From assembly GCF_000379965.1 (NCBI RefSeq), contig NZ_KB904332.1:124001-188000 (forward strand): 64,000 nucleotides of DNA, written 5' to 3'. Below the pieces are notes generated by a model. It saw only the letters and a program-made list of their open reading frames with translations. It was not told where the DNA came from and did not search any database. Origin of the DNA: Hoylesella nanceiensis DSM 19126 = JCM 15639 (GTDB lineage Bacteria > Bacteroidota > Bacteroidia > Bacteroidales > Bacteroidaceae). Shown here piece after piece: positions 3,384 through 63,155 of the stretch (the first letter of the stretch is position 1; every line of letters starts with the position of its first letter). The position numbers and the translations under genes were made by a program.

Positions 3384-3471
3384 TTCTAAAAGCATTGTTT
3401 TTGCCTTGTAATAGCATTACTATTGCCCTCTAAAAGTATTGAGTTTGTCATCTAATTGCATTGACTTTATA
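3384..3471. repeat. four-unit 22-bp intergenic palindrome array, copy A
   Basis: Four consecutive 22-bp units (3384, 3406, 3428, 3450) with cores AAAAGCATTGTTTTT, AATAGCATTACTATT, AAAAGTATTGAGTTT and AATTGCATTGACTTT, separated by 7-bp spacers. It begins just past the terminator of the phosphatase-fold gene and ends before the S41 promoter. It is one of nine such 88-bp elements in the window. Confidence 0.85.
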
Positions 3472-3473
3472 AA

Positions 3474-3511
3474 ACAATAAAAATCCCACCGGCATCACGC
3501 AAGCGGGATTT
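3474..3511 (-). terminator. intrinsic terminator of PUL 1
   Basis: On the complement AAATCCC and GGGATTT form a 7-bp stem around a 17-nt loop, followed by a T-rich run. It lies about 70 bp after the stop of the last gene of the locus and directly abuts repeat copy A. Confidence 0.7.
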
Positions 3512-3578
3512 CATTTGAGGGGATTTAAGTAAGAAACAAATAATATAAAAGACACTCCCCTCTCAACTAAACAAGATT

Positions 3579-4622
3579 TCAATTAAATGAGTTATTTTTT
3601 GCCACCTGAAAGGTCACTAACAAACCTCTATGGTCGGTAGGCCAAACGCCCAAGGGATAGATATATGGGTCGCTTGAGTGATCTTTTTGAGGTTGAAGGC
3701 GCACAACAGAGGTGTCAAGTCCAAACAACTTGGCATCTATTGCCTTTAGTCCTTCACCCTTATAATAGATCAAATCGATTCTTTCTCGCTCGTCGGCTTT
3801 AGGCGCCCACGTTAGTTTTGCGATGTCAGCATCGGGATTAAAGCAGGGATAAGTAAAGCCCGGGTGAGTTAATACGTTAGGGAATACCACACGATAACTA
3901 TCTTTAAAACCTGCTTTTTCTAATTTCTTTGAGATCGTCCAAGGCACAACAAAACCATGATGGTCGTAGAGTTGCGCTGTTGCCTCGATCCAATCGAGAT
4001 GCGAAGGCTCATTAAAGTCGCCTCCAAATATCACCAATCGACCTTTTTCAATATCGTTTCGAGCCTCGTTTAAGAACACTGTTACAGCGTTATCTCGCCA
4101 CGACAAGTCGTTCAATTTAAGCAATTGCTCAACATTTTCAGGTCTTTTGGTTTCTTTCCACGTATATCCATCAACGCCTCTAACATTATAATAGGCGCAA
4201 TCGAGATAGTCTAAGTGACAGGTATACACGGCTATTTCCTTGCCTTTAACCTTTGTAACCAGCTTATAAACACTGCCATGGTCTTTATTTAAGGGAAAAA
4301 CTACAACCGAATCGGTGATGGGTGTTCTACTTAAAACGCCCGAATCGTCTGAAAAGAACGAGTAGTAGGTAACGCCTTTCTTACGCAATTCGTTCACCAA
4401 ACGAGCCGTAAAGTCGGTGTTTCGATAGTTTCTCACCTCGCTAAGTGTGATAAAATCGGGGCGCAAACGGTCTATCTCGTTCACAATAGCATCGAACCCA
4501 CCTTTAATAAGGGTTCCTTCTTGCCAAATATTCCATTGAAGTACGGTGAATTGGAAATTACTTTTGGCATTGATTTTACATGCAATGAAAAGTATAAAGA
4601 GCAATAATCCTATCTTTTTCAT
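3579..4622 (-). CDS. endonuclease/exonuclease/phosphatase-fold secreted hydrolase
   Basis: Signal peptide over residues 1-19, then the EEP fold with its metal and catalytic signatures in order: QWNIWQ, TLSEVRN (metal-binding Glu), GGDFNEPSH, RIDLIYY and a final TDHRGLLVTF containing the catalytic Asp-His pair. Family members cleave phosphodiesters in nucleic acids, inositol phosphates or sphingomyelin. Export and its place as last gene of a SusCD locus argue for removing a phosphate or phosphodiester from a glycan or lipid. That is inference from context. The start lies 4 bp after the GH20 stop, so it is translationally close to its neighbour. Confidence 0.85.
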   Translation of the reverse strand: MKKIGLLLFILFIACKINAKSNFQFTVLQWNIWQEGTLIKGGFDAIVNEIDRLRPDFITLSEVRNYRNTDFTARLVNELRKKGVTYYSFFSDDSGVLSRTPITDSVVVFPLNKDHGSVYKLVTKVKGKEIAVYTCHLDYLDCAYYNVRGVDGYTWKETKRPENVEQLLKLNDLSWRDNAVTVFLNEARNDIEKGRLVIFGGDFNEPSHLDWIEATAQLYDHHGFVVPWTISKKLEKAGFKDSYRVVFPNVLTHPGFTYPCFNPDADIAKLTWAPKADERERIDLIYYKGEGLKAIDAKLFGLDTSVVRLQPQKDHSSDPYIYPLGVWPTDHRGLLVTFQVAKNNSFN

Positions 4623-4626
4623 ATTC

Positions 4627-6222
4627 TTATTTTTTATTGGTTTCTATCTTTCTTCCAATCTCTTTGGTAATATCAAAGGCATTATAGCCCTTCTTTCGAA
4701 GTTGATTTACAAAGGGAATAACTCGCAACTTAAACGCATCATAACTTGTTTTGGTGCCCCATGCGCTCTCTGCAATAGCCAAAAGACGAGGGTAGGTCAT
4801 GTATTCTGCATAGCGTTCTGTGTCGATATATTCAGTCCAAAGATTGCCTTGAATACCCCAAATATACTTACTTGCATCGGTATTTTCAATCTCTTTGGGC
4901 ATAGGTTCATACTCATAAGCATTTCTAAGCAGTGTAAATCCACCTATTGCACGTGGTTGTGAGCTTGGATTATCTTGATAAGCATCTAAATAATAGCGTT
5001 TAGATGGAGTGATAATTACCCTGTGTTGCGCCTTAGCAGCATGCAAACCGCCTTGCTCTCCACGCCAAGACATCACCACAGCGTTTTGAGATAGCTTTCC
5101 ACTTTCTTGTATTTCGTCCCAACCAATGATGCTTTTTCCATGCTTAGTAACGAAACTATCAATAGCAAGAATTAAGCGTCCTTGCAGCTGAAGCGTGTCG
5201 GTGTAGTTATACTTTTGCATCATTTGCTTACATTTAGGGCAGTTTTTCCAAAAGCGCATGGTTGCTTCATCACCTCCAATGTGTATGTATGGCGCAGGAA
5301 ATAGCTCCATAACCTCTGTCAAAACCTTCTTTAAAAACACCTCAGTGTCGGGATTTCCCATGCAAAGATCAAAGCCATCGCCCTTTCCTGTGCATGACAA
5401 TTCAGGATAAACAGCCATCACCTCGTTGCTATGTCCAGGCATTTCGATTTCTGGAATGACCATAATGAAACGCTTTGCAGCATAGTTAATGATGTCTTTT
5501 AAATCCTTTTTGGTGTAGTAACCACCATAAGCTCCTGGATAATCAGGCTCACAAAAGCGTCTACCCGCATCAATCCATTCGTCCCAATCGCTATGAGTTC
5601 GATAGGCTCCCTTACGTGTTAGGTCTGGGAATTGCTTCATTTCAATGCGCCAACCGCCTCCATCTACAAGGTGAAGGTGTAGCTTGTTGAGCTTAAGCAA
5701 TGCCATTGCATCGATTTGCTTGTATATAAATTCTTTAGTAAAGAAATGTCTTGAGCAGTCGAGCATCCACCCTCTATAATCGTATTTGGGTGCATCTTCG
5801 ATCACTTGGCATGCTATTTTCTTCGAGAAACAAAGCTGCTGAAGTGTTTGAAGACCATAGAAAAGACCCACATCTGATGGAGATGAAATGGTAATTTCAT
5901 TGGGGGTGATTTCTAACTTGTAGCCTTGCTCTTCGTGAAAGGATAGCTTTTGCGATGCAATAGCAGTGTTATTGAGGCGTAAAAGCTTTGCTTTTCCAGT
6001 TGAATTTGTATGCTTTTGCAACTCGGTTAAAATATAGTCGAATTGCTTTCTGTTTCGTCTTGCAGTTTTAGGGTGCCACGCAAGAGGTGCATCTAACTCC
6101 ATATAACCTTGTGTAAGGGTTACTTTTTGAGGTTGAGGAATGATGCCTTGTGCGTGAGAAGCACTGAAGAAAAAGCAGAAACAACAAAGTGCTACGAGCT
6201 TAAAAATATTGAGTTTTGTCAT
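4627..6222 (-). CDS. GH20 beta-N-acetylhexosaminidase, exported
   Basis: Removes terminal beta-linked GlcNAc or GalNAc by substrate-assisted catalysis. A signal peptide (to about residue 24) is followed by the GH20b alpha/beta domain, about 28-140. The catalytic barrel carries GWMLDCSRHF, LHLHLVDGGGWRIE and the catalytic Asp318-Glu319 pair in HIGGDEA, with a late aromatic WGIQGNLWTEY typical of the +1/-1 site. Length 531 is normal. The second Asp of the usual DDQGW motif is replaced by Gly, as in several Bacteroidetes members. It sits 35 bp behind the FAD oxidoreductase gene. It indicates a host glycan such as mucin or N-glycan as the target of PUL 1. Confidence 0.93.
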   Translation of the reverse strand: MTKLNIFKLVALCCFCFFFSASHAQGIIPQPQKVTLTQGYMELDAPLAWHPKTARRNRKQFDYILTELQKHTNSTGKAKLLRLNNTAIASQKLSFHEEQGYKLEITPNEITISSPSDVGLFYGLQTLQQLCFSKKIACQVIEDAPKYDYRGWMLDCSRHFFTKEFIYKQIDAMALLKLNKLHLHLVDGGGWRIEMKQFPDLTRKGAYRTHSDWDEWIDAGRRFCEPDYPGAYGGYYTKKDLKDIINYAAKRFIMVIPEIEMPGHSNEVMAVYPELSCTGKGDGFDLCMGNPDTEVFLKKVLTEVMELFPAPYIHIGGDEATMRFWKNCPKCKQMMQKYNYTDTLQLQGRLILAIDSFVTKHGKSIIGWDEIQESGKLSQNAVVMSWRGEQGGLHAAKAQHRVIITPSKRYYLDAYQDNPSSQPRAIGGFTLLRNAYEYEPMPKEIENTDASKYIWGIQGNLWTEYIDTERYAEYMTYPRLLAIAESAWGTKTSYDAFKLRVIPFVNQLRKKGYNAFDITKEIGRKIETNKK

Positions 6223-6257
6223 AAGATATCACTTTCTGAGTTGGAATCACACCATCG

Positions 6258-8147
6258 TTATTTCACAACGGGTTTCTTTTCAAGATTCCAACCCTCATTG
6301 TATGTTTGGTTGTTAGGTAGATTTGGGTTGCCAACACCTTTCTTCATCAACTCTTTTAAGTCTTTTAAATGGTATTGATATACCCCTCTTGGAGTGGTAT
6401 TAAACTGCTTACAAAGAGATGCTGCCATACCAACTACCTCGCCCATCATACCTGTTGTGCGCATAACTCTTATCGCTCCAAGAGCAACGTGCGTTACACT
6501 TATGTTGCGACCAGCCATAAACAAGTTGTCGATATTGCGTGAATAAAGACATCTGTAAGGCACTGTGTGAGGATAAAGCACCATTTGTTTGGTGATAGCC
6601 TTAAACTCATTACCTGGGAAATGAATACTGTTTACTGAGTCGGGATAGTGCAAATCGATGCTCCAAGATGTGGGGAACGATGCGTCTTCGTGGTCAACCA
6701 CTTTCGACAAGTCGTGCTCACTCAAGATATAATCGCCCAACAAACGGCGTGACTCACGTTTTCCTGCGACATAAGCAACCCACTCTAATTTATAATTAGC
6801 AAACTTCTTGCGGTCTACCGATTGGTTCTTTACATAGCTCCAGTTGCTATATGCCACCAACATTCCATAGTCTCTAATCTGCTCGAAGTCGTTAATTTGA
6901 TTCTTATTCATACCTGTTTCCCAGGTCCATTCACCACGGAATATCTTCTCTGCAGTAGCTTCTGTAAAGGTAATTCCATAGTTAAACGAAGGGAAAGTGG
7001 TTGGCTTTGGTTGCTTAACAGAATACCATTGCACCGAAGAACCCATCACAAGAGAGTCTGCTTTGTTAGGAGCTAAGGTCTCATAGAAATCATCTTTACT
7101 TTCTCTTCCCATCATATAATCAGCTCCAACCAAATAACCTATGGTGCCATCTCCTGTACAATCGACGAAAAGAGGAGCACTGAAAGATATTTGTTGCGCT
7201 GTTTCTGTGTTTTGAGCAAGTACTGATTGAATTTTGTTTCCTTTGCTTTCGGCTTGAATAGCACGATAGTTCAAGAATAATTCGATATTCTTTTCGGCCT
7301 TAATCACCTCGAGTTTCCTCTCATCTGCATAGTGATGAGCTGGCATTGCGTTGCCTTCTAAAGTAGGACCAAACTCTTTTTGCAAGCCACCTAAGCGTGG
7401 GAAAGGACCAATCTCGATCTTTCCACCAAGATGAACACGCACTTCTGAGCTGTTATTCCCACCTAACACGGGGCGATCTTGTATCAAAGCCACTTTCATT
7501 CCCAATCGAGCTGCCGACAAAGCAGCACTCATTCCAGCAACACCTCCACCCACAACAACAAGGTCGAACTGCTTCTTTGCAGGCTCTTTTTGTAGAGTTG
7601 GATTGTGTTTTACTCTGAACCCGCTGAGCTCTTTCAAGCTATTAGGAGGCGTTGTGGGCGTTGTTGTAAGGAAGATAGCATCGCATCGTCCATCAAAACC
7701 TGTGAGGTCGTGAAGCTTTAGTGATGCTTTTCCTGCAGGAAGAGACACCTCTCCTGCATATTGCCACATCCATTTGTTGCCCGTTGAGCCTAATGTTGCA
7801 TTTAATTTCTTATTGTTAATGCTGATAAGGAACTTGCCTGGACCAGCGGTTTTACACCAAGGTGCGGTCCAGTTATAAGTTCTTACATATACATAGTATT
7901 TCGCTTTGTCTTTTATTTCGATGTTTGTTTGGGCGTCGTTCACCTTCTTTCCCAGTCCATGAGCAATGAGATAAGGTGATCCCATTTGGTCTATAAACTG
8001 CTGATCTACACTCCAACCGCCTTTATTTTGAAAGCTTTCAGCCTCAACAAGCACATCACTTGCCAATGCAGAGCTACTTGTAAAAAGGGCAAAGAGAGCA
8101 AAAGCGCATCTTTTTATAGTCCTATTTACTTTTAAAGTTATCATCAT
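6258..8147 (-). CDS. exported FAD-dependent oxidoreductase with N-terminal carbohydrate-binding-like domain
   Basis: After a signal peptide, residues about 35-170 form a beta-rich domain resembling carbohydrate-binding modules (VEAESFQNKGGW). A PF12831-type FAD-dependent oxidoreductase follows. The dinucleotide fold DLVVVGGGVAGMSAA starts about residue 195, with LGGNNSSEVRVHLGG next and a C-terminal FAD-contact segment LFMAGRNISVTHVALG. A start 18 bp further upstream at 8165 would overlap susD by 14 bp. I prefer 8147 because it lies just past the susD stop and leaves a clean signal peptide. Substrate unknown; such proteins recur in PULs and may oxidise a sugar or a deacylated intermediate. 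Confidence 0.82.
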   Translation of the reverse strand: MMITLKVNRTIKRCAFALFALFTSSSALASDVLVEAESFQNKGGWSVDQQFIDQMGSPYLIAHGLGKKVNDAQTNIEIKDKAKYYVYVRTYNWTAPWCKTAGPGKFLISINNKKLNATLGSTGNKWMWQYAGEVSLPAGKASLKLHDLTGFDGRCDAIFLTTTPTTPPNSLKELSGFRVKHNPTLQKEPAKKQFDLVVVGGGVAGMSAALSAARLGMKVALIQDRPVLGGNNSSEVRVHLGGKIEIGPFPRLGGLQKEFGPTLEGNAMPAHHYADERKLEVIKAEKNIELFLNYRAIQAESKGNKIQSVLAQNTETAQQISFSAPLFVDCTGDGTIGYLVGADYMMGRESKDDFYETLAPNKADSLVMGSSVQWYSVKQPKPTTFPSFNYGITFTEATAEKIFRGEWTWETGMNKNQINDFEQIRDYGMLVAYSNWSYVKNQSVDRKKFANYKLEWVAYVAGKRESRRLLGDYILSEHDLSKVVDHEDASFPTSWSIDLHYPDSVNSIHFPGNEFKAITKQMVLYPHTVPYRCLYSRNIDNLFMAGRNISVTHVALGAIRVMRTTGMMGEVVGMAASLCKQFNTTPRGVYQYHLKDLKELMKKGVGNPNLPNNQTYNEGWNLEKKPVVK

Positions 8148-8151
8148 TCTA

Positions 8152-9867
8152 TTAATAACCATCATTCTGTTTAAAGTTCTTTACAATCTGAATATCTTTC
8201 GAAGGGATTGGCCATAGATATTGACGGTTATCCCATTGGCGTTGAGAAAGCACCTGAATGAGGCCTGTTGCCTCCATCTTTGTGAAGTCTGGACAGCCAT
8301 TTTCGTCGATATCAGGAGTGATAGGCCAGAACCAATTGCCTGTGTTTACCACCTTAGTAAGGCACTCTGTAGCAGGATATAACATGCCATATTGCTTTTG
8401 TTTCATCACTACTTCAGCCAAACGCCATCTGATAAGGTCGGCAAAGCGAAGGTTTTCGCCAGCTAACTCCATACGTCTTTCCATGCGAAGTTGCTTTCTC
8501 ATGTCGGTTTGAGGTAAGATTGTGAAAGCTGGATAAGATGTTGTTTGAGCCTTATCTACACCATAAGCACGAGCACGAACTGAGTTCATAGCATCGATAA
8601 CGGTTGCATCTATCTCGTTTAACTCGATCTTTGCTTCTGCATACATCAACAAAACGTCTGCATAACGCATAAGAATAATGGGGTTTTCTGCAGTATATCC
8701 ATTCTCTAACCACGACTCATCAATACCCTTTTTCCATGCTAATCCGTTGAAAGAAGCATATTGTTTATTGATACGGGTGTCGTTGTTATATTCTTGTTTG
8801 CCTGTCTTTACATTCAAAACAGTGGTTGCTGCGGGTGAAGGATTATAGACATAGCCTAAGAATGGTTCGTTAAATGGAACGATAGTCATTGCACATCGTG
8901 GGTCACGAGCTTTGAAAGGTTCATGCGAATCGAATAAAGGTGACTCGTCAATGGGCAATCCATCGGTGCAAGTATATGCGGCTAAAAGATTCCAAGAAGG
9001 GTCTGTTGAAGCCCAACCACCAGCATTTCGTACTACTTTATTCTTCACTTGACCAGCTGTTATCACATCTATTTTCATGTTGATAGAGCGTGGACGCACG
9101 AAAATGAACTCCTTTGAAACCTTTGTATGTTGCAAGAATAGGTCACGATAGTTATCGTGTAGGGCATAAACACCTAAGTCCATAACAGCTTTAGACGCTG
9201 TTGCTGCTGTTTGATAGTCGCCTAGATACAAAGCTGTTCGTGCCTTATAAGCCAACGCTGCACCCTTAGTTACTCGGTCGAAGGTTGTTGTTTTGGTAGG
9301 AAGAATATTGATAGCATAATCAAAATCCTCATAAACATGCTTTAAAACTTCGCTCTTTGCGGTTCTACCTTTAGCCATTCCCTCAGGGATTGTCAGTTCT
9401 TCTGTGAAATAAGGAACATCTCCGAAGCGAGTAATAAGACGTCCATAAGCTACCGCTCTGAAGAAATGTGCCTCCGCAACGTATTGCATTACCTCTGCTT
9501 TATTAGCGCCTCTGTCTAACGCTTTTTGGTAAGTATTGATGATTCCGTTAGCATAAGAGATCATTTGAAAATTGGTTCTCCAGTGCAAACCCACGATCCA
9601 ATCCTCACTGTTGATGGTTCCATTCTCGAAAGCTGTTAAGGCATCACGATACACTGTGTCATCACTCCAGTCTGTTTGGTTATCTCCTTCTTGTCTCCAA
9701 TAAGTCATATCGTATAGCTTATTCACTGACATTTGGATCTCTTTAGCCGAAGAATACCAGTTTCCTGTTGAGCCACTAGACAACGGATTGAGGTCTAAAT
9801 CATGACAAGAAACAAGACTTAAACTTGTAATTGCAACAAGGAATATCTTTGAAATATATTTATTCAT
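8152..9867 (-). CDS. susD: SusD-like surface glycan-binding lipoprotein (PUL 1)
   Basis: A lipoprotein with lipobox SLVSC (Cys22) and the RagB/SusD architecture: N-terminal TPR-like helices with YWRQEG and FFRAVAYGRLITRFGDVPY, then the C-terminal AEAKIELNE and ENLRFADLIRW motifs. It caps the SusC barrel and binds the glycan at the cell surface. Length 571 is typical. Its gene begins 10 bp after the susC stop and is followed by the oxidoreductase gene with almost no gap. Confidence 0.95.
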   Translation of the reverse strand: MNKYISKIFLVAITSLSLVSCHDLDLNPLSSGSTGNWYSSAKEIQMSVNKLYDMTYWRQEGDNQTDWSDDTVYRDALTAFENGTINSEDWIVGLHWRTNFQMISYANGIINTYQKALDRGANKAEVMQYVAEAHFFRAVAYGRLITRFGDVPYFTEELTIPEGMAKGRTAKSEVLKHVYEDFDYAINILPTKTTTFDRVTKGAALAYKARTALYLGDYQTAATASKAVMDLGVYALHDNYRDLFLQHTKVSKEFIFVRPRSINMKIDVITAGQVKNKVVRNAGGWASTDPSWNLLAAYTCTDGLPIDESPLFDSHEPFKARDPRCAMTIVPFNEPFLGYVYNPSPAATTVLNVKTGKQEYNNDTRINKQYASFNGLAWKKGIDESWLENGYTAENPIILMRYADVLLMYAEAKIELNEIDATVIDAMNSVRARAYGVDKAQTTSYPAFTILPQTDMRKQLRMERRMELAGENLRFADLIRWRLAEVVMKQKQYGMLYPATECLTKVVNTGNWFWPITPDIDENGCPDFTKMEATGLIQVLSQRQWDNRQYLWPIPSKDIQIVKNFKQNDGY

Positions 9868-9877
9868 AATAAAATCA

Positions 9878-12800
9878 CTAGAAGTTAATATTTAAACCGA
9901 ACATTAATGAACGCATAATAGGATAGCCTGCGTCTACTACTTCAGGGTCCCATCCCTTTGGACAGTTATTGAAACTGAACAAATCATTCGCTGAAACATA
10001 CACACGAAGTGACTTCACAAAGAAGCGATTCACAATGTGCTTAGGAATAGAATAGCCAAGAGTGATGTTCTTACAACGTAGATACCAACCATTATATAGC
10101 CATTGATCAGACATTGAATAGTTTGTATCTGCATTAGAACGAGTGAGTCTTGGATACTTCATTTGCTTGTTTTGTTCGTCTGTGTTATATGAACTCCAAT
10201 ATTGACCGTCGATGAGTTGTGGGAAATTGAGCCAGTTTCCTGGAAGACCTTCCACCATTGATGGGGTCATTCTGTTCCACTTTTCGCCTACACCTTGGAA
10301 CGAAACATTAAAGTCGAAGCCTTTATATGCAGCGCCAAGTGATAGTCCATACAAGAAATGAGGTAGTGAACCCTTCAATAAAACACGGTCATATTCAGCC
10401 GAGATGATGCCATCTGCTGTTCCATTAGGACCTGAAACGTCTTCGTATTGAACGTCACCTACTTTAATATTCTTATTGAGTTTAGCTGAATTATCTAAGG
10501 TTGTTTGGTCTTGGTAGATACCTTTACTACGATAACCATACCATTGATTAAATTCACTTCCTTCTCTATTGATTTGCGCTCCCACAAATTCTGTACCATT
10601 CATGTTGCCCATCACCGATTTATAATCAGATAGGTTGAAAGCTACATTGTATTGAAGTTCGCCAATTTTGTCACGCCAAGACAAGTCAAGGTCGAATCCT
10701 TTGGTGTGCATTTTACCTGCATTGACATCTGGATTAGCATATCCCATGAAGATAGGGATTTGCAATGCCAACAACATATCTTTGGTATTCTTCTTATAAT
10801 AGTCGAAAGTAAAGCTCAAACGATTGTTTAAGAAGCGTGCATCAATACCGATATCCCAGCTCTGAGTGGTTTCCCATGTGATGTCTTTCACTGCATATTT
10901 GCCTTGAGCAGCAGTGGTGATAGACATGGTTTGACCTGCATTATACATCAAAGCTCTACCGAAATCGATTGAAGCTTGATAAGGATAATAACTTCCGATA
11001 CGCTCATTTCCTAACTTACCAGTAGACAAACGCACTTTGAAGTGATTAAGCCAACGCAATGGTTTCATGAAGTTTTCTTCTGAAACAACCCAACCTAACG
11101 ACAAAGAAGGGAACGAAGCCCAACGTGTTGCACGATTAAATCGAGAAGAACCGTCACGTCTTAAGTTCAATTCTAATAGGTATTTATTAGCGTAAGAGTA
11201 GTTAATTCTGCTGAAGTATGAGCGATATGAATATTCAAGAGCATTACCACCCACCTTTTGATGATCGCTTGGTGCAAGGTCAAGATATGGATAATCCATC
11301 AATTCATAGTTGCTTCCGCTACCCGACATCTTTTCTTCTCTCATGTAGAAATATTCGTATCCTAACAATAAAGAGATGTCGTGAAGACCAATTGTCTTGT
11401 GATAATTACCCAAAGCTTGTGCTGTTATGTCGTAACCTTGCTTTCTTATTTCTTCTAAAGAGGTTACATAGTGACCACCAAAGTAGCCTACCACCTTGTT
11501 AGGATCGTCGGCATTGGTATAAGGAACTTGCTTAACAAAGCTCTTGATGTTGTCGAAACGGAAGTTAGGAGAAGCAATTAAAGATAGTTTTAAGCCTTCG
11601 ATTGGCTTAATATTGAGTTCTCCCTTACCGCCAATAGCATATCTGTTGGTTGCTTCAACGCCACCTGCTTGAATCTTAGCAAGCATGTTTTCGCCGTCTT
11701 TCACGTCACCATAACGACCATCTTGCCAATGAACTGCATAGATAGGAGGAATATTTCGGCCACCATCATCAAATGGATTGTGATGTGGAGTCTTTAAACG
11801 TGAATAGCTAAAGTTAGCATCTAAGTGTGCCTCGATGTATTTATTTAATGAGAAGTCGTTGTTTAAACGAGTCATAAAGCGTTCGTAGTTGCGATTAACA
11901 TACATACCATCGCTCTTGTCGTAACGGAAAGATGCTTTCGACATCACCTTCTTTCCACCACCCATTAAACTGAATGTGTGTGTTTGACGATTTACGTTTT
12001 TATTGTAAAGAACGTCTTCCCAATTAGTAATAGGATATTTATCGGGATTGGTTTTATTGTTTTGTAGGTAATTAGCAATGAGGTCTTCTGCATAAGTTTG
12101 GAACTTTCCACCTTGTGGGTTATCGTTATAACGCAACTCGTTGGTCATCTCCATAAAACGTTTCCAGCCTACATATTTAGGCATAGTGGTAGGTTTATCG
12201 AATCCAAACTCGAAGTTATACGACATTTGTAAGTCGTCTGTTTTTGCACGTTTAGTGGTGATAAGCACAACACCTGCAGCAGCTCTTGAACCATAAATAG
12301 CTGCCGATGCTGCATCTTTCAATACAGATAGATTTTCAACATCATCGGGATTCACCATATTAATATCACCAGGTACTCCGTCGATGATCACCAATGGACT
12401 TGTATCACTTAAGGTAGTGATACCACGAATTTGCAATGTTGCATTACTTTCAGGTGCTCCTCCGTTTCGAGTTACAGTTAAACCTGATGTTGCTCCTTGC
12501 AAAGCTGTAGACAAATGAGTGGCGTGACTGTCGCTAATGGTTGTGCTACTCACTGCACTCACTGCTCCTGTTAGGTTCTTCTTCTTCATTGTTCCATAAC
12601 CAACAACAACCACTTCTTCGAGTGCTGCAACGTCGTCTTGGAGCACAATGCTCATATTTTTTGAAGCCTTTAGCTCTTTATCTCTCCAACCAATGTACGA
12701 CACAACGAGTGTACTTCCTACTGGAGCATCCATCGAGAACTTACCATCTACATCGGTGATGGTGCGATTTTGGGTTCCTTTTTGCACGATAGTAGCACCA

Positions 12801-51784: not shown

Positions 51785-51798
51785 ATTTATTCTTAGAA

Positions 51799-54029: not shown

Positions 54030-54052
54030 TCATACTTCTACATAAAATTCCC

Positions 54053-54375: not shown

Positions 54376-54475
54376 TAGCATATAAATATCTTCCAAAATA
54401 TATCGCCTTGTTCAACAAGTGCAACCAAAATCAACTCATTGATATTCAAAAAGTTTCACAAAACATAAAAACATC

Positions 54476-56056: not shown

Positions 56057-56079
56057 TCTCTTAATCAGTCCATAACCAG

Positions 56080-56110
56080 AGGGCGCATCTACACGATGCG
56101 CCCTTTTATT
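56080..56110 (+). terminator. intrinsic terminator of the endonuclease gene
   Basis: AGGGCGCATC and GATGCGCCCT form a perfect 10-bp GC-rich stem with a 5-nt loop (56080-56104), followed by TTTTATTTT. Confidence 0.92.
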
Positions 56111-56290
56111 TTATCCCTTTTCAACAACTCTTTCTCTCCTATCAAAACACAGAAGCTTTGCTATTATTTCATAACTCATCATTAACCCGTTAGGAGTTGA
56201 AGCTACTTAAAAACATAAAAAACACCTACACAATACTTATTTTATCGCAAAATCTATCTAAAAAACACCCCTAAATACATTTTTTTTGAT

Positions 56291-56298
56291 TATTTTTG
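56291..56298 (+). promoter_or_regulatory. -7 box of the murG-ftsZ cluster; decides the murG start
   Basis: TATTTTTG fits TAnnTTTG and lies 23 bp before the ATG at 56322. The longer open frame from 56286 starts inside it and is rejected. Confidence 0.55.
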
Positions 56299-56321
56299 CA
56301 AGGATATATCACATTATTAGA

Positions 56322-57431
56322 ATGGAACGAAACTTGAGAATAATTATCAGTGGCGGTGGAACTGGTGGGCACATCTTCCCTGCTATCTCGATTGCTAACG
56401 CCATAAAGCAGTTAGAACCCACAGCAAATATATTGTTTGTAGGTGCTTTAGGGCGTATGGAAATGCAACGAGTGCCCGACGCTGGTTATGACATTAAAGG
56501 CCTACCTGTATGCGGTTTCGATAGAAAACACCTATGGAAAAACATTAAAGTGCTTTATAAGCTTTGGCAAAGTCGCCGTTTAGCAAAAGCAATTATCAAA
56601 GAGTTTAAGCCCAATGCGGCTGTTGGTGTTGGCGGTTATGCCAGCGGTCCAACGCTCAATCAATGCGCTTCACTTGGCGTTCCCTATCTTATTCAAGAGC
56701 AAAACTCTTACGCTGGCGTAACAAACAAGCTGTTAGCAAAGCGTGCAAGCAAAATATGTGTAGCGTATGAAGGTATGGATCGTTTCTTTCCAAGCGACAA
56801 AATAATACTTACAGGCAATCCTGTTCGCCAGAATATCTTGCAAAACAACATCTCAAAGGCAGACGCTCGCAAGGCATTTCAGTTAGATTCTGAAAAGAAA
56901 ACCATTCTTATTATCGGCGGAAGTCTTGGTGCTCGCACCATTAACGAGAGTATTTTGCAACATCTTAGCGACATTAGAAACAGCGATGTGCAATTTATTT
57001 GGCAAACAGGAAAGGTGTATAAAGAAGCAATAGCAAAACGCTTGGAAGGCGAAGAGCCTCTTGCAAATCTTCATGTCACCGACTTTATTAGCGATATGGC
57101 CTCTGCTTATGCCGCAGCCGACATGGTTATTAGTCGTGCAGGCGCAAGTTCTATCAGCGAATTCTGCCTTTTAGGTATGCCAGTGATATTGGTTCCAAGT
57201 CCTAATGTGGCTGAAGACCATCAAACAAAGAATGCTCTTGCCCTTGTAAACAAGCAGGCTGCAGTGTATGTTAAGGATGCAGAAGCACCCGAAAAGCTTA
57301 TCAAAACAGCATTATCAATCGTCAACGACGAGAGCAAACTAAACGAATTACATCAAAATATCTTAGGAATGGCACTCAAAAACTCGGCTGAACGCATTGC
57401 CGAAGAGGTGCTAAAAATAGCAAAACAATAA
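56322..57431 (+). CDS. murG: UDP-GlcNAc:lipid I N-acetylglucosaminyltransferase
   Basis: Adds GlcNAc to lipid I on the inner face of the membrane, giving lipid II. GT-B fold with the N-terminal glycine-rich IIISGGGTGGHIFPAISIA, GVGGYASGPTL, and the C-terminal donor site IIGGSLGARTINE and SRAGASSISEFCLLGMPVILVP. Length 369 from 56322 is normal. First gene of murG-murC-ftsQ-ftsA-ftsZ; its last base overlaps the first base of murC. Confidence 0.96.
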   Translation: MERNLRIIISGGGTGGHIFPAISIANAIKQLEPTANILFVGALGRMEMQRVPDAGYDIKGLPVCGFDRKHLWKNIKVLYKLWQSRRLAKAIIKEFKPNAAVGVGGYASGPTLNQCASLGVPYLIQEQNSYAGVTNKLLAKRASKICVAYEGMDRFFPSDKIILTGNPVRQNILQNNISKADARKAFQLDSEKKTILIIGGSLGARTINESILQHLSDIRNSDVQFIWQTGKVYKEAIAKRLEGEEPLANLHVTDFISDMASAYAAADMVISRAGASSISEFCLLGMPVILVPSPNVAEDHQTKNALALVNKQAAVYVKDAEAPEKLIKTALSIVNDESKLNELHQNILGMALKNSAERIAEEVLKIAKQ

Positions 57432-58810
57432 TGGAATTAAACGAAATAAAAGCAGTATACTTCATCGGTGCGGGTGGAATTGGAATGAGTGCAATAGCTC
57501 GTTACTTCCTTGCAAAAGGACTTGTTGTTGCAGGTTACGATAAAACTCCAACCGACCTAACACGTAACTTAGAGAAAGAGGGCATGCTTCTTCACTACGA
57601 AGAGAATGTAGACGAAATACCACATGCCTGCAAAAATCCTCTAAACACATTGGTAGTATACACGCCAGCCATTCCTTCTACACATAAAGAACTTGTCTTC
57701 TTCCGTGAAAACAACTTCGATATTCAAAAGAGAGCACAAGTGTTAGGAACCCTAACTCGCACTCATAAGGGCATTTGCGTTGCGGGAACACATGGCAAAA
57801 CATCTACTTCTACGATGTGTGCACACATCCTTCACCAGAGTAATGTAGACTGTAACGCCTTTCTTGGAGGCATTTCGAAAGATTATGGCACCAACTATAT
57901 CTTATCAAAAGATAGCGAATACGTTGTAATCGAAGCCGATGAATTCGACAGAAGCTTTCATTGGTTGCATCCATATGCCACAGTTATCACCTCAACAGAT
58001 CCCGATCACTTAGATATTTACGGAACTAAAGAGGCTTATTTGGAAAGCTTTCAACACTATACAACACTCATTCAACCAGGCGGTGCCTTAATTATTAAGA
58101 AGGGATTGGAGATGACTCCTGCTGTAGTTGAAGGCGTTAAGGTGTATGAATATAGCGAGAATGAGGGTGATTTCCATGCTGAAAACATCAAAATAGAGAA
58201 TGGAGAGATCACATTCGACTTCATTTCGCCCATCGAAAACGTGCCTAATATAAGATTAGGACAACCTGTTCCTATCAATATTGAGAATGGTGTGGCTGCA
58301 ATGGCATTGGCTCAAATATGCGGTTGCACTGCAGATGAATTGCGATATGGTATGAGTTCGTATCACGGAGTGGTGAGACGATTCGACTTTAAGATAAAGA
58401 ACGATAAGCATGTGCTGCTCTCTGACTACGCACATCACCCCAAAGAGATATACCAAAGCGCAAAAAGCTTAAAACAACTTTATAGCAATCGCAAAATAAC
58501 TGCTATCTTCCAACCTCACCTTTACAGCAGAACTAAGGACTTTTATAAGGACTTTGCAGATGCTCTTAGCTTGTTGGACGAAGTCATTTTATGCGATATC
58601 TACCCTGCAAGGGAGCTTCCTATCGAAGGAGTTACAAGTAAGTTGATTTACGACTGCTTGAAAGATGGAGTTCAAAAGCAAATGATTCACAAAGAAGAGC
58701 TGCTCGACTTGGCTCGTGAACGTGACTTCGATGTGCTCGTAATATTAGGTGCTGGCGACATAGAAAGCTACATGCCACAGCTCACTAAAATAATAGAATC
58801 AAAAGAATAA
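57431..58810 (+). CDS. murC: UDP-N-acetylmuramate--L-alanine ligase
   Basis: Attaches L-Ala to UDP-MurNAc. Mur-ligase domains: N-terminal AVYFIGAGGIGMSAIARYF, ATP site VAGTHGKTSTSTMCAHIL, central EADEFDRSFHWLHP and TDPDHLDIYG, and the C-terminal LSDYAHHPKEI and FQPHLYSRTKDF. Length 459 is normal. It overlaps murG by one base, so translational coupling is likely. Confidence 0.96.
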   Translation: MELNEIKAVYFIGAGGIGMSAIARYFLAKGLVVAGYDKTPTDLTRNLEKEGMLLHYEENVDEIPHACKNPLNTLVVYTPAIPSTHKELVFFRENNFDIQKRAQVLGTLTRTHKGICVAGTHGKTSTSTMCAHILHQSNVDCNAFLGGISKDYGTNYILSKDSEYVVIEADEFDRSFHWLHPYATVITSTDPDHLDIYGTKEAYLESFQHYTTLIQPGGALIIKKGLEMTPAVVEGVKVYEYSENEGDFHAENIKIENGEITFDFISPIENVPNIRLGQPVPINIENGVAAMALAQICGCTADELRYGMSSYHGVVRRFDFKIKNDKHVLLSDYAHHPKEIYQSAKSLKQLYSNRKITAIFQPHLYSRTKDFYKDFADALSLLDEVILCDIYPARELPIEGVTSKLIYDCLKDGVQKQMIHKEELLDLARERDFDVLVILGAGDIESYMPQLTKIIESKE

Positions 58811-58852
58811 ACCACATTATATAAATAAGGCATCAACCTCTTTTCGGTCAAT

Positions 58853-59641
58853 ATGCGAATAAATGTAAAGAAAATAGTAACCATTTTGCTCGATGTTGCA
58901 TTGGCAGTGTATCTTGTTTTTGCGTTCACATCGTTCAATAAGCCCTACTCTACAACCACGACTTGCAATAAAGTGCAGATCAATGTTGCAGATGGTGCTA
59001 CCAATGGGTTTATAGATGCCAAGGAAATAAAAGCGAGATTGCAAAAGAAAAAGCTTTTCCCGCTTGAACAACCAATGCGTTATATCGATACAAGACGCAT
59101 TGAAGAGATGCTTACAAAGAGCCCTTTCGTGAGTACAGCAGAATGTTATAAGACTCAAGAGGGACACGTAAACATCACCATTACACAACGAATGCCAGTG
59201 GTAAGAATAAAGGCTCAGAACGGAGATGACTATTATGTGGACGACAAAGACTGCATAATGCCCAACTCACATTACACCTCTGACCTGATCATTGCAACGG
59301 GACCAATCACTCGTTCGTTTGCTCAAAGATACATTTCGCCTATGAGCCGCACTATCATTAGTAACGAACTATGGCAGAATCTCGTTGAGCAAATCAATGT
59401 ATTACCCAACAATGGCATCGAAATCATACCAAGAATAGGCGACCACATCATCTATCTTGGTCAGATTCCAGAAAGTAGAAGTCGTGAAAAACGAGAACTA
59501 TTGATAAAGAATTTTATTGATAAAAAGCTGTCAAGACTAGAGAAATTCTATAAATATGGATTGTCTCAAGCAGGCTGGAACAAATATTCTTATATCAATT
59601 TAGAGTTTGACAACCAAATTATTTGTAAGAAACGAATTTAG
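58853..59641 (+). CDS. ftsQ: cell division protein FtsQ
   Basis: A bitopic membrane protein: short cytoplasmic N-terminus, one membrane helix (about 6-26), then a periplasmic POTRA-like domain (DAKEIKARLQKKKLFP, SPFVSTAECYKTQEGHVNITITQRMPVVRI) and a beta domain. It links FtsZ-ring components to the later division proteins. Identification rests on architecture plus its exact position between murC and ftsA. Length 262 is typical of Bacteroidetes. Confidence 0.9.
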   Translation: MRINVKKIVTILLDVALAVYLVFAFTSFNKPYSTTTTCNKVQINVADGATNGFIDAKEIKARLQKKKLFPLEQPMRYIDTRRIEEMLTKSPFVSTAECYKTQEGHVNITITQRMPVVRIKAQNGDDYYVDDKDCIMPNSHYTSDLIIATGPITRSFAQRYISPMSRTIISNELWQNLVEQINVLPNNGIEIIPRIGDHIIYLGQIPESRSREKRELLIKNFIDKKLSRLEKFYKYGLSQAGWNKYSYINLEFDNQIICKKRI

Positions 59642-59662
59642 AAAATACAACGAAATACAGTT

Positions 59663-61117
59663 ATGGCAAAGGAATTTATTGTAGCAATAGAATTAGGGTC
59701 AACCAATATTATTGGTGTTGCTGGCAAGAAAAACATAGATGGAAGCATCTCAATTCTTTCAGTAATCAAAGAAGACTCCACCTCATGTATCAACAAAGGA
59801 GTGGTGTATAACATTGACAAAACCGTGCAATGTTTAACCAATATTATCAAGCGTTTAGAGACATCTTTAAAGGCTAAGGTGGCTCAAGTGTATGTTGGTG
59901 TAGGCGGACAAAGCATTAGAAGTGTCAAGAACACATTGATTAAAGAACTTCCTTTAGATACTGTTGTAACCTTAGACATGGTAAATGAGCTAATGGATGA
60001 AAACAGAAACATGACTTATCCCGCACAAGAAGTCCTCGATGCGATAACTCAAGAATATAAAGTTGATGCACAATATCAGCTCGACCCCGTTGGTATTCAG
60101 TGCACAAGACTCGAAGCAAACCTATTAAATATATTGTGGAAGAAATCTTTTTACCGCAATCTTAATAAGTGTTTCGATAATGCAGGTATCGCAATTGCAG
60201 AGATGTACCTTGCTCCTTTGGCTCTTGCCGACAGCGTTTTAACCGACGTAGAGAAGCGAGTTGGCTGTGTTTTAGTTGACTTAGGTGCTGAAACTACAAC
60301 CGTTTCAGTGTACTATCGCAACATACTTCGCCATTTAGCTGTTATCCCATTGGGTGGAAATAACATCACAATAGACATCGCATCACTTCAGATGGACGAT
60401 GAAAATGCAGAGAAGATGAAGCGCAAATATGCTTCGGCTTACACTGATAGTAAAGACATAGACGAGAACTTAAAGTATTCAATTGATGAAGACAGACAAG
60501 TTGATAGCAAGACATTCATCGAGATTGTAGAAGCTCGTTTAGAAGAAATTATAAAGAATGTGTGGTACCAAGTGCCTAGCGAATACACCGATAAGCTATT
60601 AGGTGGATTCATAATTACAGGTGGAGTATCTAACATGAAGAACATAGAAAAGGCGTTTAAGCAACACACTGGAGTTGATAAGATAAGAATTGCCAACTTT
60701 GTTCAAGAGACAATTAACTCAAATATTCCTGAAATCACAGCACACGACGCAACAATGAACACCGTATTAGGATTGATTGCTAAAGGCGATATGAATTGTG
60801 CTGGCGACGAACTAACAAGCGATTTATTCGCAAAAGAAAATAACACAGAAACCACTTCTACTGTTGTTGAGGCACCAAAGGCACCTCGTTCAATAACTGA
60901 AACACAGGGAAGAGGTGTTGTTCCTACTGAAGCTGAGAAACAAAAGGCTGAAGAAGAGGCAAGAAGAAAGCGTGAAGAAGAAGAAGCTGAACAAAGAGCT
61001 AGAGAGGAAGAAGAACGCAGATTAGAAGAAGAAAAGCGTAAGAATAGTCCTTTAAACAAGCTATTCAGAAAGACAAAGAGTTTCTTCGATCAGATAATGA
61101 AAGAAGAAGGAGAGTAA
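59663..61117 (+). CDS. ftsA: cell division protein FtsA
   Basis: Actin-like protein tethering FtsZ to the membrane. Phosphate-1 motif FIVAIELGSTNIIGVAG at the N-terminus, SHS2/1C domain (KAKVAQVYVGVGGQSIRSVKN), phosphate-2 GCVLVDLGAETTTVSVYY and adenosine motif GGFIITGGVSNMKNIE. After residue 400 comes a Glu/Lys/Arg-rich, probably coiled-coil tail (QKAEEEARRKREEEEAEQ) before the final amphipathic LFRKTKSFFDQIM membrane helix. That makes it longer (484) than the enterobacterial protein, as is common in Bacteroidetes. Confidence 0.95.
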   Translation: MAKEFIVAIELGSTNIIGVAGKKNIDGSISILSVIKEDSTSCINKGVVYNIDKTVQCLTNIIKRLETSLKAKVAQVYVGVGGQSIRSVKNTLIKELPLDTVVTLDMVNELMDENRNMTYPAQEVLDAITQEYKVDAQYQLDPVGIQCTRLEANLLNILWKKSFYRNLNKCFDNAGIAIAEMYLAPLALADSVLTDVEKRVGCVLVDLGAETTTVSVYYRNILRHLAVIPLGGNNITIDIASLQMDDENAEKMKRKYASAYTDSKDIDENLKYSIDEDRQVDSKTFIEIVEARLEEIIKNVWYQVPSEYTDKLLGGFIITGGVSNMKNIEKAFKQHTGVDKIRIANFVQETINSNIPEITAHDATMNTVLGLIAKGDMNCAGDELTSDLFAKENNTETTSTVVEAPKAPRSITETQGRGVVPTEAEKQKAEEEARRKREEEEAEQRAREEEERRLEEEKRKNSPLNKLFRKTKSFFDQIMKEEGE

Positions 61118-61156
61118 GAGAACAAGCAGATTTAACGTTTTTAATGCACAAAGAAT

Positions 61157-62491
61157 ATGGCAGATAACGCATTTAACGACAGCGGAAGAGTAGAATTTAT
61201 ATCAGCTAAGAAGGCTAAAAGTATAATAAAAGTAATTGGTGTTGGAGGTGGAGGCGGTAACGCTGTAAACCACATGTATAGAGAAGGAATCCACGATGTA
61301 ACCTTCTTGGTTTGCAACACCGACCGACAAGCACTCGAAGACTCACCCATTCCAGACAGACTTCAATTGGGAGACGAAGGTTTGGGAGCAGGAACTAATC
61401 CTATAAAGGGTCGTACCGAGGCTGAAAACAGCATCGAACAAATCCGTGCAAAGCTAAGCGATGGCACCAAGATGGTATTTATCACCGCCGGAATGGGTGG
61501 TGGAACTGGTACAGGTGCTGGTCCTATCGTAGCGAAAGTAAGTAAGGAAATGGACATTCTTACAGTGGGAATCGTCACCATTCCATTTATTTTCGAGGGT
61601 GCAAAGAAAATCGATCAAGCTTTAGATGGTGTGGAAGAGATGGCTAAAAACGTTGATGCTCTTTTGGTTATCAACAACGAACGCCTCAGAGAAATATACC
61701 CTTCGCTTGGTGTTTTAGATGCTTTTGGAAAGGCAGACGACACTCTTAGCATCGCAGCACGAAGCATTGCAGAGATAATCACAGAACATGGTATTATCAA
61801 TGTCGACTTCCAAGACGTTAAAAACGTATTGAGAGAAGGCGGAGTAGCTATCATGAGTACTGGTTATGGCGAAGGTGAAGGCAGATTAAGAAAGGCTATT
61901 GAAGATGCACTTAACTCGCCTCTACTCAACGATAACGACATCTATAACTCAAAGAAAATCCTTTTAAGCATCAAGATTAGTGACGACAAGGACGAAAAGA
62001 CCAAATTCACTATGGAAGAGATGAACGAGGTTCACGAGTTTATGGGTAAGATTACAGGCGACTATGAGTCGAAGTTTGGATTGTCTGTAGATCCTGAATT
62101 GGGCGAAAAAGTAAAGGTTACCATTCTTGCAACGGGCTTCGGTATGAAAGATATCGATGTTGTTGAGAACCATATGAACAAGAAAGAAGCTCAAGAAGAG
62201 GCTATCAACAACGCCAAAAAGCAACAAGAAGTGGCTCAAAAGATGATGCTCAGAGGTAAGTATTACGGCGGAGATGTGGCGCACAGAAATGCAAAACGCA
62301 ATTTCAACGTGTTCCTATTCGATTCTGAAGACTTATCAAATGAAGAGATTATCCTTGAAGTAGAGAAGATACCAACCTACAAACGTAGTATCAAAGCACT
62401 CGAAGACATTCGTCGTAAGCTAAAAAAAGAGCCTACAAACGATAACAACGATGGCCAAGAACCTATACAAGGGCTCATCACATTTGCATAA
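61157..62491 (+). CDS. ftsZ: cell division GTPase FtsZ
   Basis: Tubulin-like GTPase that forms the division ring. IKVIGVGGGGGNAVNHM at the nucleotide pocket, the tubulin signature GMGGGTGTGAGPIVAKV and the T7-loop region NVDFQDVKNVLREGG. The C-terminal linker and the last residues (GQEPIQGLITFA) include the interaction tail that binds FtsA. Length 444. Lies 39 bp behind ftsA. Confidence 0.97.
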   Translation: MADNAFNDSGRVEFISAKKAKSIIKVIGVGGGGGNAVNHMYREGIHDVTFLVCNTDRQALEDSPIPDRLQLGDEGLGAGTNPIKGRTEAENSIEQIRAKLSDGTKMVFITAGMGGGTGTGAGPIVAKVSKEMDILTVGIVTIPFIFEGAKKIDQALDGVEEMAKNVDALLVINNERLREIYPSLGVLDAFGKADDTLSIAARSIAEIITEHGIINVDFQDVKNVLREGGVAIMSTGYGEGEGRLRKAIEDALNSPLLNDNDIYNSKKILLSIKISDDKDEKTKFTMEEMNEVHEFMGKITGDYESKFGLSVDPELGEKVKVTILATGFGMKDIDVVENHMNKKEAQEEAINNAKKQQEVAQKMMLRGKYYGGDVAHRNAKRNFNVFLFDSEDLSNEEIILEVEKIPTYKRSIKALEDIRRKLKKEPTNDNNDGQEPIQGLITFA

Positions 62492-62521
62492 ATAAGAACG
62501 TAAAATATCAATTATAGAGAT

Positions 62522-62971
62522 ATGGAACTATTCGAACAAATCAGCAATGACATTAAAGACGCAATGAAAGCACGTGACAAAGTGCGCTTAGAAACATTGC
62601 GTAACATTAAGAAAGTGTTCCTTGAAGCAAAGACAGCACCTGGTGCAAACGATCAATTAAGCGATGCAGATGCTCTTAAAATACTTCAGAAACTTGCTAA
62701 ACAAGGCAAAGAATCTGCCGCAACTTTCACTCAGTCGGGTCGTGAAGACTTAGCTGCTCACGAAATAGAACAGGTGAAAGTGATCGAAGCATACTTGCCT
62801 AAGCCTCTTTCTAACGAAGAGATTGAGAAGATAGTAGCTAACATTATCAGCGAAACAGGGGCACAAGGTATGAAAGATATGGGCAAAGTGATGGGACAAG
62901 CAAGCAAACAAATGGCTGGAAAAGCAGAGGGTGGAACCATCTCTACCATCGTTAAGAAGTTGCTTTCTTAA
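62522..62971 (+). CDS. GatB/YqeY-domain protein
   Basis: 149-residue soluble helical protein of the YqeY family (MELFEQISNDIKDAMKARDKVRLETLRNIKK, then AYLPKPLSNEEIEK and GMKDMGKVMGQASKQMAGKAEG). It resembles the tail domain of the GatB subunit of the tRNA amidotransferase; a role in tRNA-dependent processes is assumed for the family but not established. It lies 30 bp behind ftsZ and probably ends the division operon. Confidence 0.92.
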   Translation: MELFEQISNDIKDAMKARDKVRLETLRNIKKVFLEAKTAPGANDQLSDADALKILQKLAKQGKESAATFTQSGREDLAAHEIEQVKVIEAYLPKPLSNEEIEKIVANIISETGAQGMKDMGKVMGQASKQMAGKAEGGTISTIVKKLLS

Positions 62972-63028
62972 TCGTTTCGAAGCACAATAACGCCTCAGCA
63001 ACAATGTTTGCAGGCACATAATATCATT

Positions 63029-63067
63029 AAACTCCAATGCACTCCGTGTGTTGGAGTTTCTTTTTAT
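63029..63067 (+). terminator. intrinsic terminator of the division cluster
   Basis: AAACTCCAA (63029-63037) pairs perfectly with TTGGAGTTT (63051-63059), followed by CTTTTTAT. Repeat copy I begins at the very next base. Confidence 0.82.
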
Positions 63068-63155
63068 CCCTCAAAAAGCAGTGCTTTTACGGTTCAATTG
63101 CATTGCTTTTTGCACCCAATATCAATGCTTTTCCAAGCCAATAACATCGCTTTTA
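63068..63155. repeat. four-unit 22-bp intergenic palindrome array, copy I
   Basis: Units start at 63068, 63090, 63112 and 63134 with cores AAAAGCAGTGCTTTT, AATTGCATTGCTTTT, AATATCAATGCTTTT and AATAACATCGCTTTT. It directly follows the ftsZ/yqeY terminator, in the 399-bp gap before the PASTA gene. The rest of the gap holds the -7 box at 63235 and an otherwise featureless leader. Confidence 0.87.

Follow-up and report, generated by a model that had tools for sequence, protein, structure and literature searches.

A 64,000-nucleotide stretch of the Hoylesella nanceiensis DSM 19126 genome (contig NZ_KB904332.1, positions 124,001 to 188,000; hereafter the window) holds ten arrays of four near-palindromic units set at exactly 22 bp, here called tetrads, and its base composition carries a periodic pattern of nearly the same step, here called the comb, which is read in A minus T (A-T) and in A plus T (A+T). 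A first-pass annotation had reported nine arrays of four 22-bp units, and all nine were recovered at the coordinates it gave. The tenth tetrad, which it had overlooked, lies within an open reading frame (ORF), and the comb, a chromosome-wide 22-bp rhythm, had likewise escaped it. The features are listed below in window coordinates, with tetrad scores from the weight matrix described further on; G448 denotes a close sister genome.

1..64000, no strand: comb, with an A-T line at 21.975 bp (peak/median 32) and an A+T line at 10.986 bp (peak/median 107)
3388..3468, no strand: tetrad, 60.3 bits, in the gap between tandem (-) genes
5937..6017, no strand: overlooked tetrad, 56.8 bits, within the GH20-family ORF 4627-6222 (-)
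14449..14529, no strand: tetrad, 71.1 bits, downstream of the DNA gyrase B-family ORF 14739-16715 (-)
21745..21825, no strand: tetrad, 62.6 bits, in a convergent gap
36554..36634, no strand: tetrad, 80.6 bits, the top weight-matrix score of the window
40534..40614, no strand: tetrad, 50.4 bits, in a convergent gap adjoining the 3' end of the acetate kinase-family ORF 40677-41873 (-)
43107..43187, no strand: tetrad, 71.5 bits, overlapping the last codons of ORF 43171-44499 (-), with an orthologous tetrad in G448
51888..51968, no strand: tetrad, 70.5 bits, first of a pair with tetrad 54198
54198..54278, no strand: tetrad, 72.1 bits, its first two units closely similar to those of tetrad 51888
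63074..63154, no strand: tetrad, 74.3 bits, with an orthologous tetrad in G448

The arrays of the window stood out whether or not a motif was supplied. A search for the core with up to three mismatches gave 52 matches where 11.1 were expected, a number that none of 100 shuffles reached, and a motif-blind scan, which asks solely for four palindromic units at a given spacing, returned exactly the ten arrays as its top ten (scores 68-91), the runner-up scoring 54. Tandem Repeats Finder (TRF) listed just three rows with period 22 in the window. Tetrads 51888 and 54198 lie exactly 2310 bp (105 x 22) apart and flank ORF 52419-54029, for which no Pfam match was found; the segment 51943-54193 is without a counterpart in G448, which has a single tetrad at that place. 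Right before tetrad 51888, at 51654-51783, there is a 66-bp repeat (3 x 22) in two head-to-tail copies with 84% matches.

Abundance was determined in a sample of 864 kb, about one third of the 2.65-Mb genome, made up of the window and two other stretches (C1:1-400 kb and C2:1-400 kb). The array search used a 15-bp symmetric weight matrix and returned the best four-unit window, never a shorter span; the arrays themselves had been the training set of the matrix, and the motif-blind scan and a reversed-sequence control served as safeguards. The results showed 116 places above 18 bits and 113 arrays above 30 bits, one per 7.6 kb, which extrapolates to about 350 arrays in the whole genome, and the reversed sequence of the same 864 kb gave one place above 10 bits and none above 12 bits. 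Among the 113 arrays, 91 had four good units (each above 3 bits), 15 had three of four, six had five and one had six. When sites scoring 8 bits or more were joined into runs at exactly 22 bp, whatever their number, 73 runs had four sites, 22 three, 19 two, one five and one six; single sites of at least 8 bits outside such runs numbered 457, and the reversed control held 241 sites altogether. Spacings between sites up to 120 bp apart were dominated by 22 (291 pairs), 44 (187) and 66 bp (90), followed by 88 (8) and 110 bp (6). The fixed 22-bp period proposed in the first-pass annotation is borne out by these spacings, and its statement that the number four does not vary was too strict, as the arrays of five and six units show: four units per array strongly dominate, though not absolutely. 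Its view that the arrays are no slippage-driven minisatellite held up, because copy number is near-fixed rather than widely variable between loci (91/113 four of four) and copies are not alike over the whole unit, their spacers being mostly distinct.

The unit consensus reads Y-AAAAGCA-N-TGCTTTT-R and is followed by a 7-bp spacer that is nearly free, with 251 distinct spacers among 300 in 100 arrays. In those arrays the left and right half-sites of one unit were no more alike than half-sites of different arrays, same-unit identity falling below the between-array expectation in all four units, and half-site pairs within an array showed no strong covariation (28 comparisons, largest |z| 2.3). 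The covarying unit arms of repetitive extragenic palindromes (REP), bacterial interspersed mosaic elements (BIME) or RNA hairpins were not seen, nor were the near-identical copies of miniature inverted-repeat transposable elements (MITE). RNA stems are disfavoured because stems would covary and the half-sites do not, and the arrays are not copies of one element because copies would share spacers. In 12 clean orthologous arrays compared with G448, core identity was 589/672 (0.876) and spacer identity 168/252 (0.667), the latter below the 0.772 found in the aligned window at 2221 fourfold-degenerate sites (p 1.6e-4). This comparison leaves out four of 16 pairs, namely C1:217874, 247417 and 388995, which lie at block ends with low identity, and window 51888, where two tetrads map to one in G448; with all 16 pairs kept, the values were 0.838 for the core and 0.607 for the spacer. 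The conserved core is therefore under selection, and the spacers turn over no more slowly than neutral DNA. Judged by their sequence, the arrays look like DNA sites for a dimeric protein, four in a row, rather than RNA hairpins, element copies or slippage repeats, and the earlier proposal of dimer sites on one DNA face is consistent with the independent half-sites, the conserved core and the exact period. In two loci of relatives (L099:17733 and L080:18878) the four units are near-identical over long stretches, unlike most arrays, and these may be young.

The comb was found in C1 and C2 as well as in the window. The spectra of C1 and C2 had an A-T line at 21.96-21.97 bp and an A+T line near 11.0 bp (10.98), G448 had its A-T line at 21.95 bp, and the A-T lines of C1 and C2 survived masking of 150 bp around every tetrad. 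A 50-kb stretch of E. coli, the sole distant control, gave peaks of only 12 (A-T) and 13 (A+T) times the median, at unrelated periods. The generic pattern is A-rich at phases 0-3, T-rich at phases 11-14 and G/C-rich in between. In C2 the A-T amplitude (x 1e-3) was 56 at third codon positions, about four times the 14 and 14 of the first two, and 49 in noncoding DNA; the corresponding A+T amplitudes were 61, 20 and 13, and 30. The A-T phase was correlated over long distances: between 1-kb windows of C2 the correlation was 0.51 at 1 kb, 0.32 at 5 kb, 0.22 at 12 kb and 0.14 at 16 kb (noise 0.05), in C1 it was 0.30 at 1 kb, 0.18 at 5 kb and 0.11 at 8 kb with noise thereafter, and in two stretches of G448 it was 0.38-0.46 at 1 kb and 0.19-0.21 at 5 kb, then 0.07-0.10, near noise. 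E. coli gave 0.08 at 1 kb (50 windows, noise 0.14). The A+T phase correlation, at half the period, faded within 3-8 kb, and the A+T power of C2 in 20 kb was 9.07, against a mean of 2.27 and a maximum of 3.86 in 100 trials with random shifts of 1-kb blocks. Growth of spectral power up to 100-kb windows stems partly from the small number of such windows, and the phase correlation was relied on instead; by that measure the comb remembers its phase over several to about 15 kb.

Arrays and comb are one system in this genome. The comb phase measured 200-2500 bp from the 113 tetrads was locked to them with R 0.864 (A-T) and 0.795 (A+T), at angles of -89.4 and -179.8 degrees respectively, the values demanded by dyad symmetry at the tetrad centre, and randomly displaced positions gave a mean R of 0.08 and a maximum of 0.20 (A-T, 200 trials). 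The distances between neighbouring tetrads less than 6 kb apart (n=46), which make no use of composition, had their best period within 20-24 bp at 21.96 bp, and at the composition period of 21.965 bp they gave R = 0.65 (p ~4e-9). Less than 1.5 kb from a tetrad the local comb strength stood at about 4.8 times noise, and past 10 kb at 1.7-1.8 times noise. On both flanks weak in-register units recurred each 22 bp to a distance of 638 bp or more. The bases specific to the core faded on the way, phase-5 C by some 200 bp and phase-4 G over roughly 450 bp, with the generic phasing continuing beyond.

The sister genome G448 had the same spectral lines and the same phase lock, with 40 tetrads. For 35 tetrads of our genome the surroundings could be aligned to it, and 16 of these had a G448 tetrad within 400 bp of the projected place. 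Substitutions between the two genomes depended weakly on comb phase (p 0.04 for W to S, 0.54 for S to W). Ends of synteny blocks fell within 500 bp of a tetrad in 24/55 cases, as against 16.6 for random intergenic points (p 0.026). At C1:273-288 kb (L041-L042) the blocks break and flip near tetrads, the tetrad at 279310 standing at such a boundary. Three stretches were free of the comb and of any tetrad above 30 bits: C2:56-76 kb, C2:380-400 kb and C1:176-200 kb. Ten proteins tested in or beside them include SusD, TonB-plug, restriction and RHS proteins, an AcrB-family pump and a cation ATPase. Within C1:176-200 kb, 6 kb are 99.1% identical to G448, other long blocks being mostly at 84-95%, and this near-identity suggests recent arrival; a missing comb may be a way to spot DNA acquired recently.

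With respect to genes, which were called by a simple script so that the gap-class numbers are approximate, gaps of at least 100 bp held an array in 29/53 convergent, 60/225 tandem and 13/60 divergent cases (convergent versus divergent p 4e-4, convergent versus tandem p 1.5e-4). In 61 tandem gaps the median distance from the array was 112 bp to the upstream stop and 178 bp to the downstream start, the stop being the nearer (p 0.003). Six of the 113 arrays lay inside ORFs and two at stretch ends. The earlier assignment of the arrays to transcription-unit borders is thus supported by the convergent-gap preference and fails for the six intragenic arrays. Convergent gaps were likewise preferred in other species (64 arrays at score 74 in 32/95 sources, 7 of them in ORFs and 2 at edges), where gaps of at least 80 bp held an array in 20/136 convergent, 28/481 tandem and 7/148 divergent cases.

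The first-pass annotation had proposed a scan of other Prevotellaceae for the core, and this test failed: no two-unit match was found in 200 other genomes of the family that were sampled. Within the genus 16/397 other genomes had any two-unit match to the core, 13 of them with one to four; more than four occurred only in G448 (72+61), G499 (8+4) and G388 (6+7), and a reversed-pattern control matched one genome once (G263). What relatives share is the array architecture, with other, lineage-specific cores. The gyrase B-family protein next to tetrad 14449 has its closest named relatives in Prevotella and related genera (85% in Prevotella sp. MGM1), and 80 named loci around its gene, the best 80 of 593 and nearly all Bacteroidales, held at score 70 or more 38 palindromic four-unit arrays at 22 bp, 9 at 21 and 3 at 23; control periods of 18 and 27 bp, both codon multiples, gave 13 and 6, and 14 bp gave 11. 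At score 78, 94 loci (the 80 named and 14 sampled) held 30 arrays at 22 bp and, at spacings of 20, 21, 23, 24, 25 and 26 bp, 1, 6, 2, 2, 2 and 0; of the 30, 19 had four units, nine had five, one six and one seven. Their cores go by lineage, with ACCTTT half-sites in Palleniella muris and P. intestinalis, AACCTTT in L134, CACTTTT-like ones in Prevotella aurantiaca, and others. P. intestinalis (G710) had 14 arrays at 22 bp in 200 kb, 13 of them with the species core, and none at six other spacings, and 200 kb of G056 held 11 at 22 bp, with at least two core families, and none at other spacings. The A+T spectrum between 9 and 13 bp was examined in the 70 named loci that reached 12 kb, the 10 shorter ones of the 80 being left aside. 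Its top line lay within 10.91-11.00 bp in 13 loci, with about 2 expected by chance for this band, which was picked post hoc. A+T period estimates from L089, L099, L088, L073, L086, L148 and G056 ranged across genomes from 10.935 to 11.014 bp; the spread may partly be short-stretch error, because one genome gave both 11.000 (L089) and 10.982 bp (G710, 200 kb). G056 (L234, L278-L286) had a sharp A+T line at 11.01 bp, 84.8 times the median in one 20-kb stretch.

These results point to tetrads as anchors of a regular nucleoprotein lattice along the chromosome, a reading to which we give roughly an even chance. Each tetrad would be a set of high-affinity sites at which four dimers of a sequence-specific protein sit abreast, one per two helical turns, and would fix the rotational register of a nucleoprotein structure repeating every 21.96-21.97 bp (10.98 bp per turn). 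Within a few hundred base pairs of an anchor the structure would be followed by weak cognate units and farther out by the generic pattern, with A/T on one face and G/C on the other, and, as phase is kept between anchors, a scaffold would hold the path of the DNA in place for several to about 15 kb. Touching symmetric dimers would impose a dyad every 22 bp and a second type of dyad half-way, A-rich then T-rich about the one and T-rich then A-rich about the other. The arrays would be mostly intergenic, chiefly in convergent gaps, thereby sparing promoters. The protein lattice would be the cause of the comb, the tetrads would nucleate or anchor it, and the recognition surface would differ by species. 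In the available part of PMC4132750, a period above 10.5 bp is taken to mean unwound DNA or a right-handed path. Free plectonemes would slide and lose phase over kilobases, and a scaffold would keep it; anchors plus a lattice are therefore proposed. The fuller version, in which the lattice is continuous and register-keeping with one dimer per 22 bp, has its phase set by hundreds of tetrads, is imprinted on coding sequence and uses lineage-specific cores, we hold only tentatively, at somewhat less than an even chance.

Several observations weigh against an anchored lattice. Only in this species and in G448 are arrays and comb firmly coupled, and the strong 22-bp A-T line is confined to the same two genomes. 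Only 22/94 other loci hold an array at score 78. In the 200 kb of G710 the A+T line was weak, 3.2 times the median (44 times in L089, 22 kb of the same genome), and the phase lock, R 0.716, was borderline at about the random maximum of 0.72; in the 200 kb of G056 the line was strong (15.7 times) and the arrays were unlocked, R 0.30 against a random mean of 0.27. Among 28 arrays of other loci, the 18 in loci with a line above 13 locked modestly with R 0.52 (p 0.008) and the other 10 gave R 0.40. Other loci peak elsewhere, at up to 23.5 times the median (L077, 9.17 bp), and because off-band maxima reach this height single weak peaks are not evidence. A clear line appeared in two of six sampled loci of the genus (G056, G164), and eight sampled loci of other families gave two in-band maxima at a noise-level 12 times the median and one array at score 68 or more. 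No G448 tetrad stood at the matching place for 19/35 of our alignable tetrads, many of them at alignment ends, and distances between neighbouring tetrads kept in both genomes changed by 1, 21, 1, 0, -42 and 4 bp, which is suggestive of register-keeping, though six pairs are too few. Occupying every 22 bp with a dimer would take some 120,000 dimers for each copy of the genome, a large number. Furthermore, no reader protein was identified among Lrp/AsnC, histone-fold, HU and HU-HIG candidates. Lrp/AsnC is disfavoured as the reader of the core, since its recognition helix is invariant across species with differing cores: VSGAAIHQRIQKL was identical in our protein and in 13/13 of the closest orthologues listed, which come with several different cores (G448, among these genomes, shares ours); the L134 genome yielded only a second paralogue, with SRAAVHQRVQ.

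The remaining candidate families were surveyed by Pfam profile. The histone fold (PF00808) was rejected, with matches in 0/17 genomes, ours included. HU-HIG (PF18291) matched 118/119 order-level genomes including ours, which has 4, in a search that also catches ordinary HU, and HU (PF00216) numbered 5 in our genome and 4 to 23 across 17 genomes; the counts of both had no evident relation to the comb (119 and 17 genomes, respectively). HU may be a generic filler of the lattice. At C1:50025-50583 (L030) a gene for a 100-aa HU is directly followed by a 465-aa ORF with an HU domain, and an adjacent HU pair was present in 17/17 genomes.

The comb could also be a by-product of mutation bias rather than a selected code: a fixed DNA path would expose one face to damage or repair, mutation bias would write the comb, and selection would act on the tetrads only. 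The signal is indeed strongest at freely varying sites, namely third codon positions and noncoding DNA, and the three stretches that lack both comb and strong tetrads, one with 99.1% identity to G448, look like newly arrived DNA not yet written; however, the near flanks keep the cognate G (phase 4) and C (phase 5), which mutation bias alone does not explain, and the phase-resolved substitutions against G448 are only weakly skewed, so that this account seems to us rather unlikely. Tetrads and comb may alternatively be two separate things, the former operators of a cooperative regulator and the latter the known ~11-bp A-tract periodicity of supercoiled DNA. The available parts of PMC4132750 and PMC7537859 report third-codon ~11-bp A-tract signals in many bacteria, and G056 has arrays without a locked comb, but the known signals are short, the phase memory here is several to about 15 kb, the lock reaches R 0.86 and tetrad spacing by itself yields the same period; we regard such independence as distinctly unlikely.

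Two further explanations address the arrays themselves. A mobile or recombining repeat family of REP/MITE type, spread into permissive gaps, would account for the convergent-gap preference, the synteny block ends near tetrads (24/55, p 0.026), the similar tetrads 51888 and 54198 that bracket a segment missing from G448, and the 19/35 alignable tetrads without a G448 counterpart (many at alignment ends). It is made very improbable by the 251/300 distinct spacers, the independent half-sites, the 12 clear orthologous arrays in place, the phase lock of the comb and the zero two-unit matches to the core in 2.9 million viral contigs. An RNA-level role, as bidirectional terminators of transcription or as other hairpins, would suit the palindromic units, the enrichment in convergent gaps and the position nearer the upstream stop in tandem gaps (p 0.003), but the arms lack compensatory covariation, some arrays are intragenic, the exact 22-bp period has no evident RNA role, and Rfam gave no match in the window at gathering scores; we consider this, too, very improbable.

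How bacterial DNA is packed in the absence of nucleosomes is an old open question, and it becomes directly approachable through a sequence signal whose phase holds for kilobases and is tied to a defined family of sites; the present data suggest that the chromosomal DNA of a Prevotella-like bacterium is held by a protein scaffold in a regular, chromatin-like way. Tetrad DNA could be used to fish out the protein, whose footprint phase is predicted to the base. If an anchored lattice is indeed present, synonymous positions genome-wide carry packaging information or a packaging scar, and a hitherto unnoticed class of intergenic arrays in common Bacteroidales is explained.

Among known systems, Lrp/AsnC octamers present four DNA-binding dimers, bind 15-bp palindromic sites and wrap DNA; the octameric form suits the tetrads, and the difference lies in a recognition helix that stays unchanged while the cores change. 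Histone chromatin has A/T and G/C helically phased along wrapped DNA with a period of about 10.2 bp; the comb resembles it in this phasing and differs from it in its 10.98 bp and in the lack of a histone-fold match in 17 genomes. The BrickBuilt MITE minisatellites of Porphyromonas gingivalis are likewise short tandem units of similar length in Bacteroidales gaps, whereas the unit copies described here vary freely outside the core and their number is held at about four. PINSR of Prevotella intermedia and P. nigrescens, as described in the available part of its source, is intergenic, belongs to the Prevotella lineage and numbers 177 and 184 copies in two strains; roughly three quarters of the copies keep their place, and most strain-specific regions have none. 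It differs in being a 188-bp element with one consensus, for which that text describes no 22-bp four-unit palindromic structure (PMC4755523). In the open-access literature, as far as its accessible text goes, no account was found of four-unit arrays with lineage-specific cores or of phase-keeping over kilobases, and the available part of PMC8040213 describes neither such arrays nor kilobase-scale phase coherence. The closest likeness to the comb is the ~11-bp A-tract periodicity, which has A/T steps of about 11 bp (here 10.98 bp) in coding and noncoding DNA and at third codon positions. In the parts of the sources available, its signals span about 100 bp (PMC4132750), its fitted half-lives were sought from 5 to 60 bp only (PMC7537859), its patterns are 'fuzzy' and reach up to 60 bp (PMC1242344), and 'persistent' signals are those that cover much of the chromosome, not those that keep phase (PMC3431218, PMC3940949). 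That periodicity fades within about 100 bp and is not, in these texts, tied to a site family, whereas the correlation of the comb persists at 5 kb and the comb is locked to arrays and has a 22-bp strand-asymmetric component; within the literature searched, the ~11-bp periodicity is known, and the tetrad arrays and their phase locking over kilobases are apparently new.

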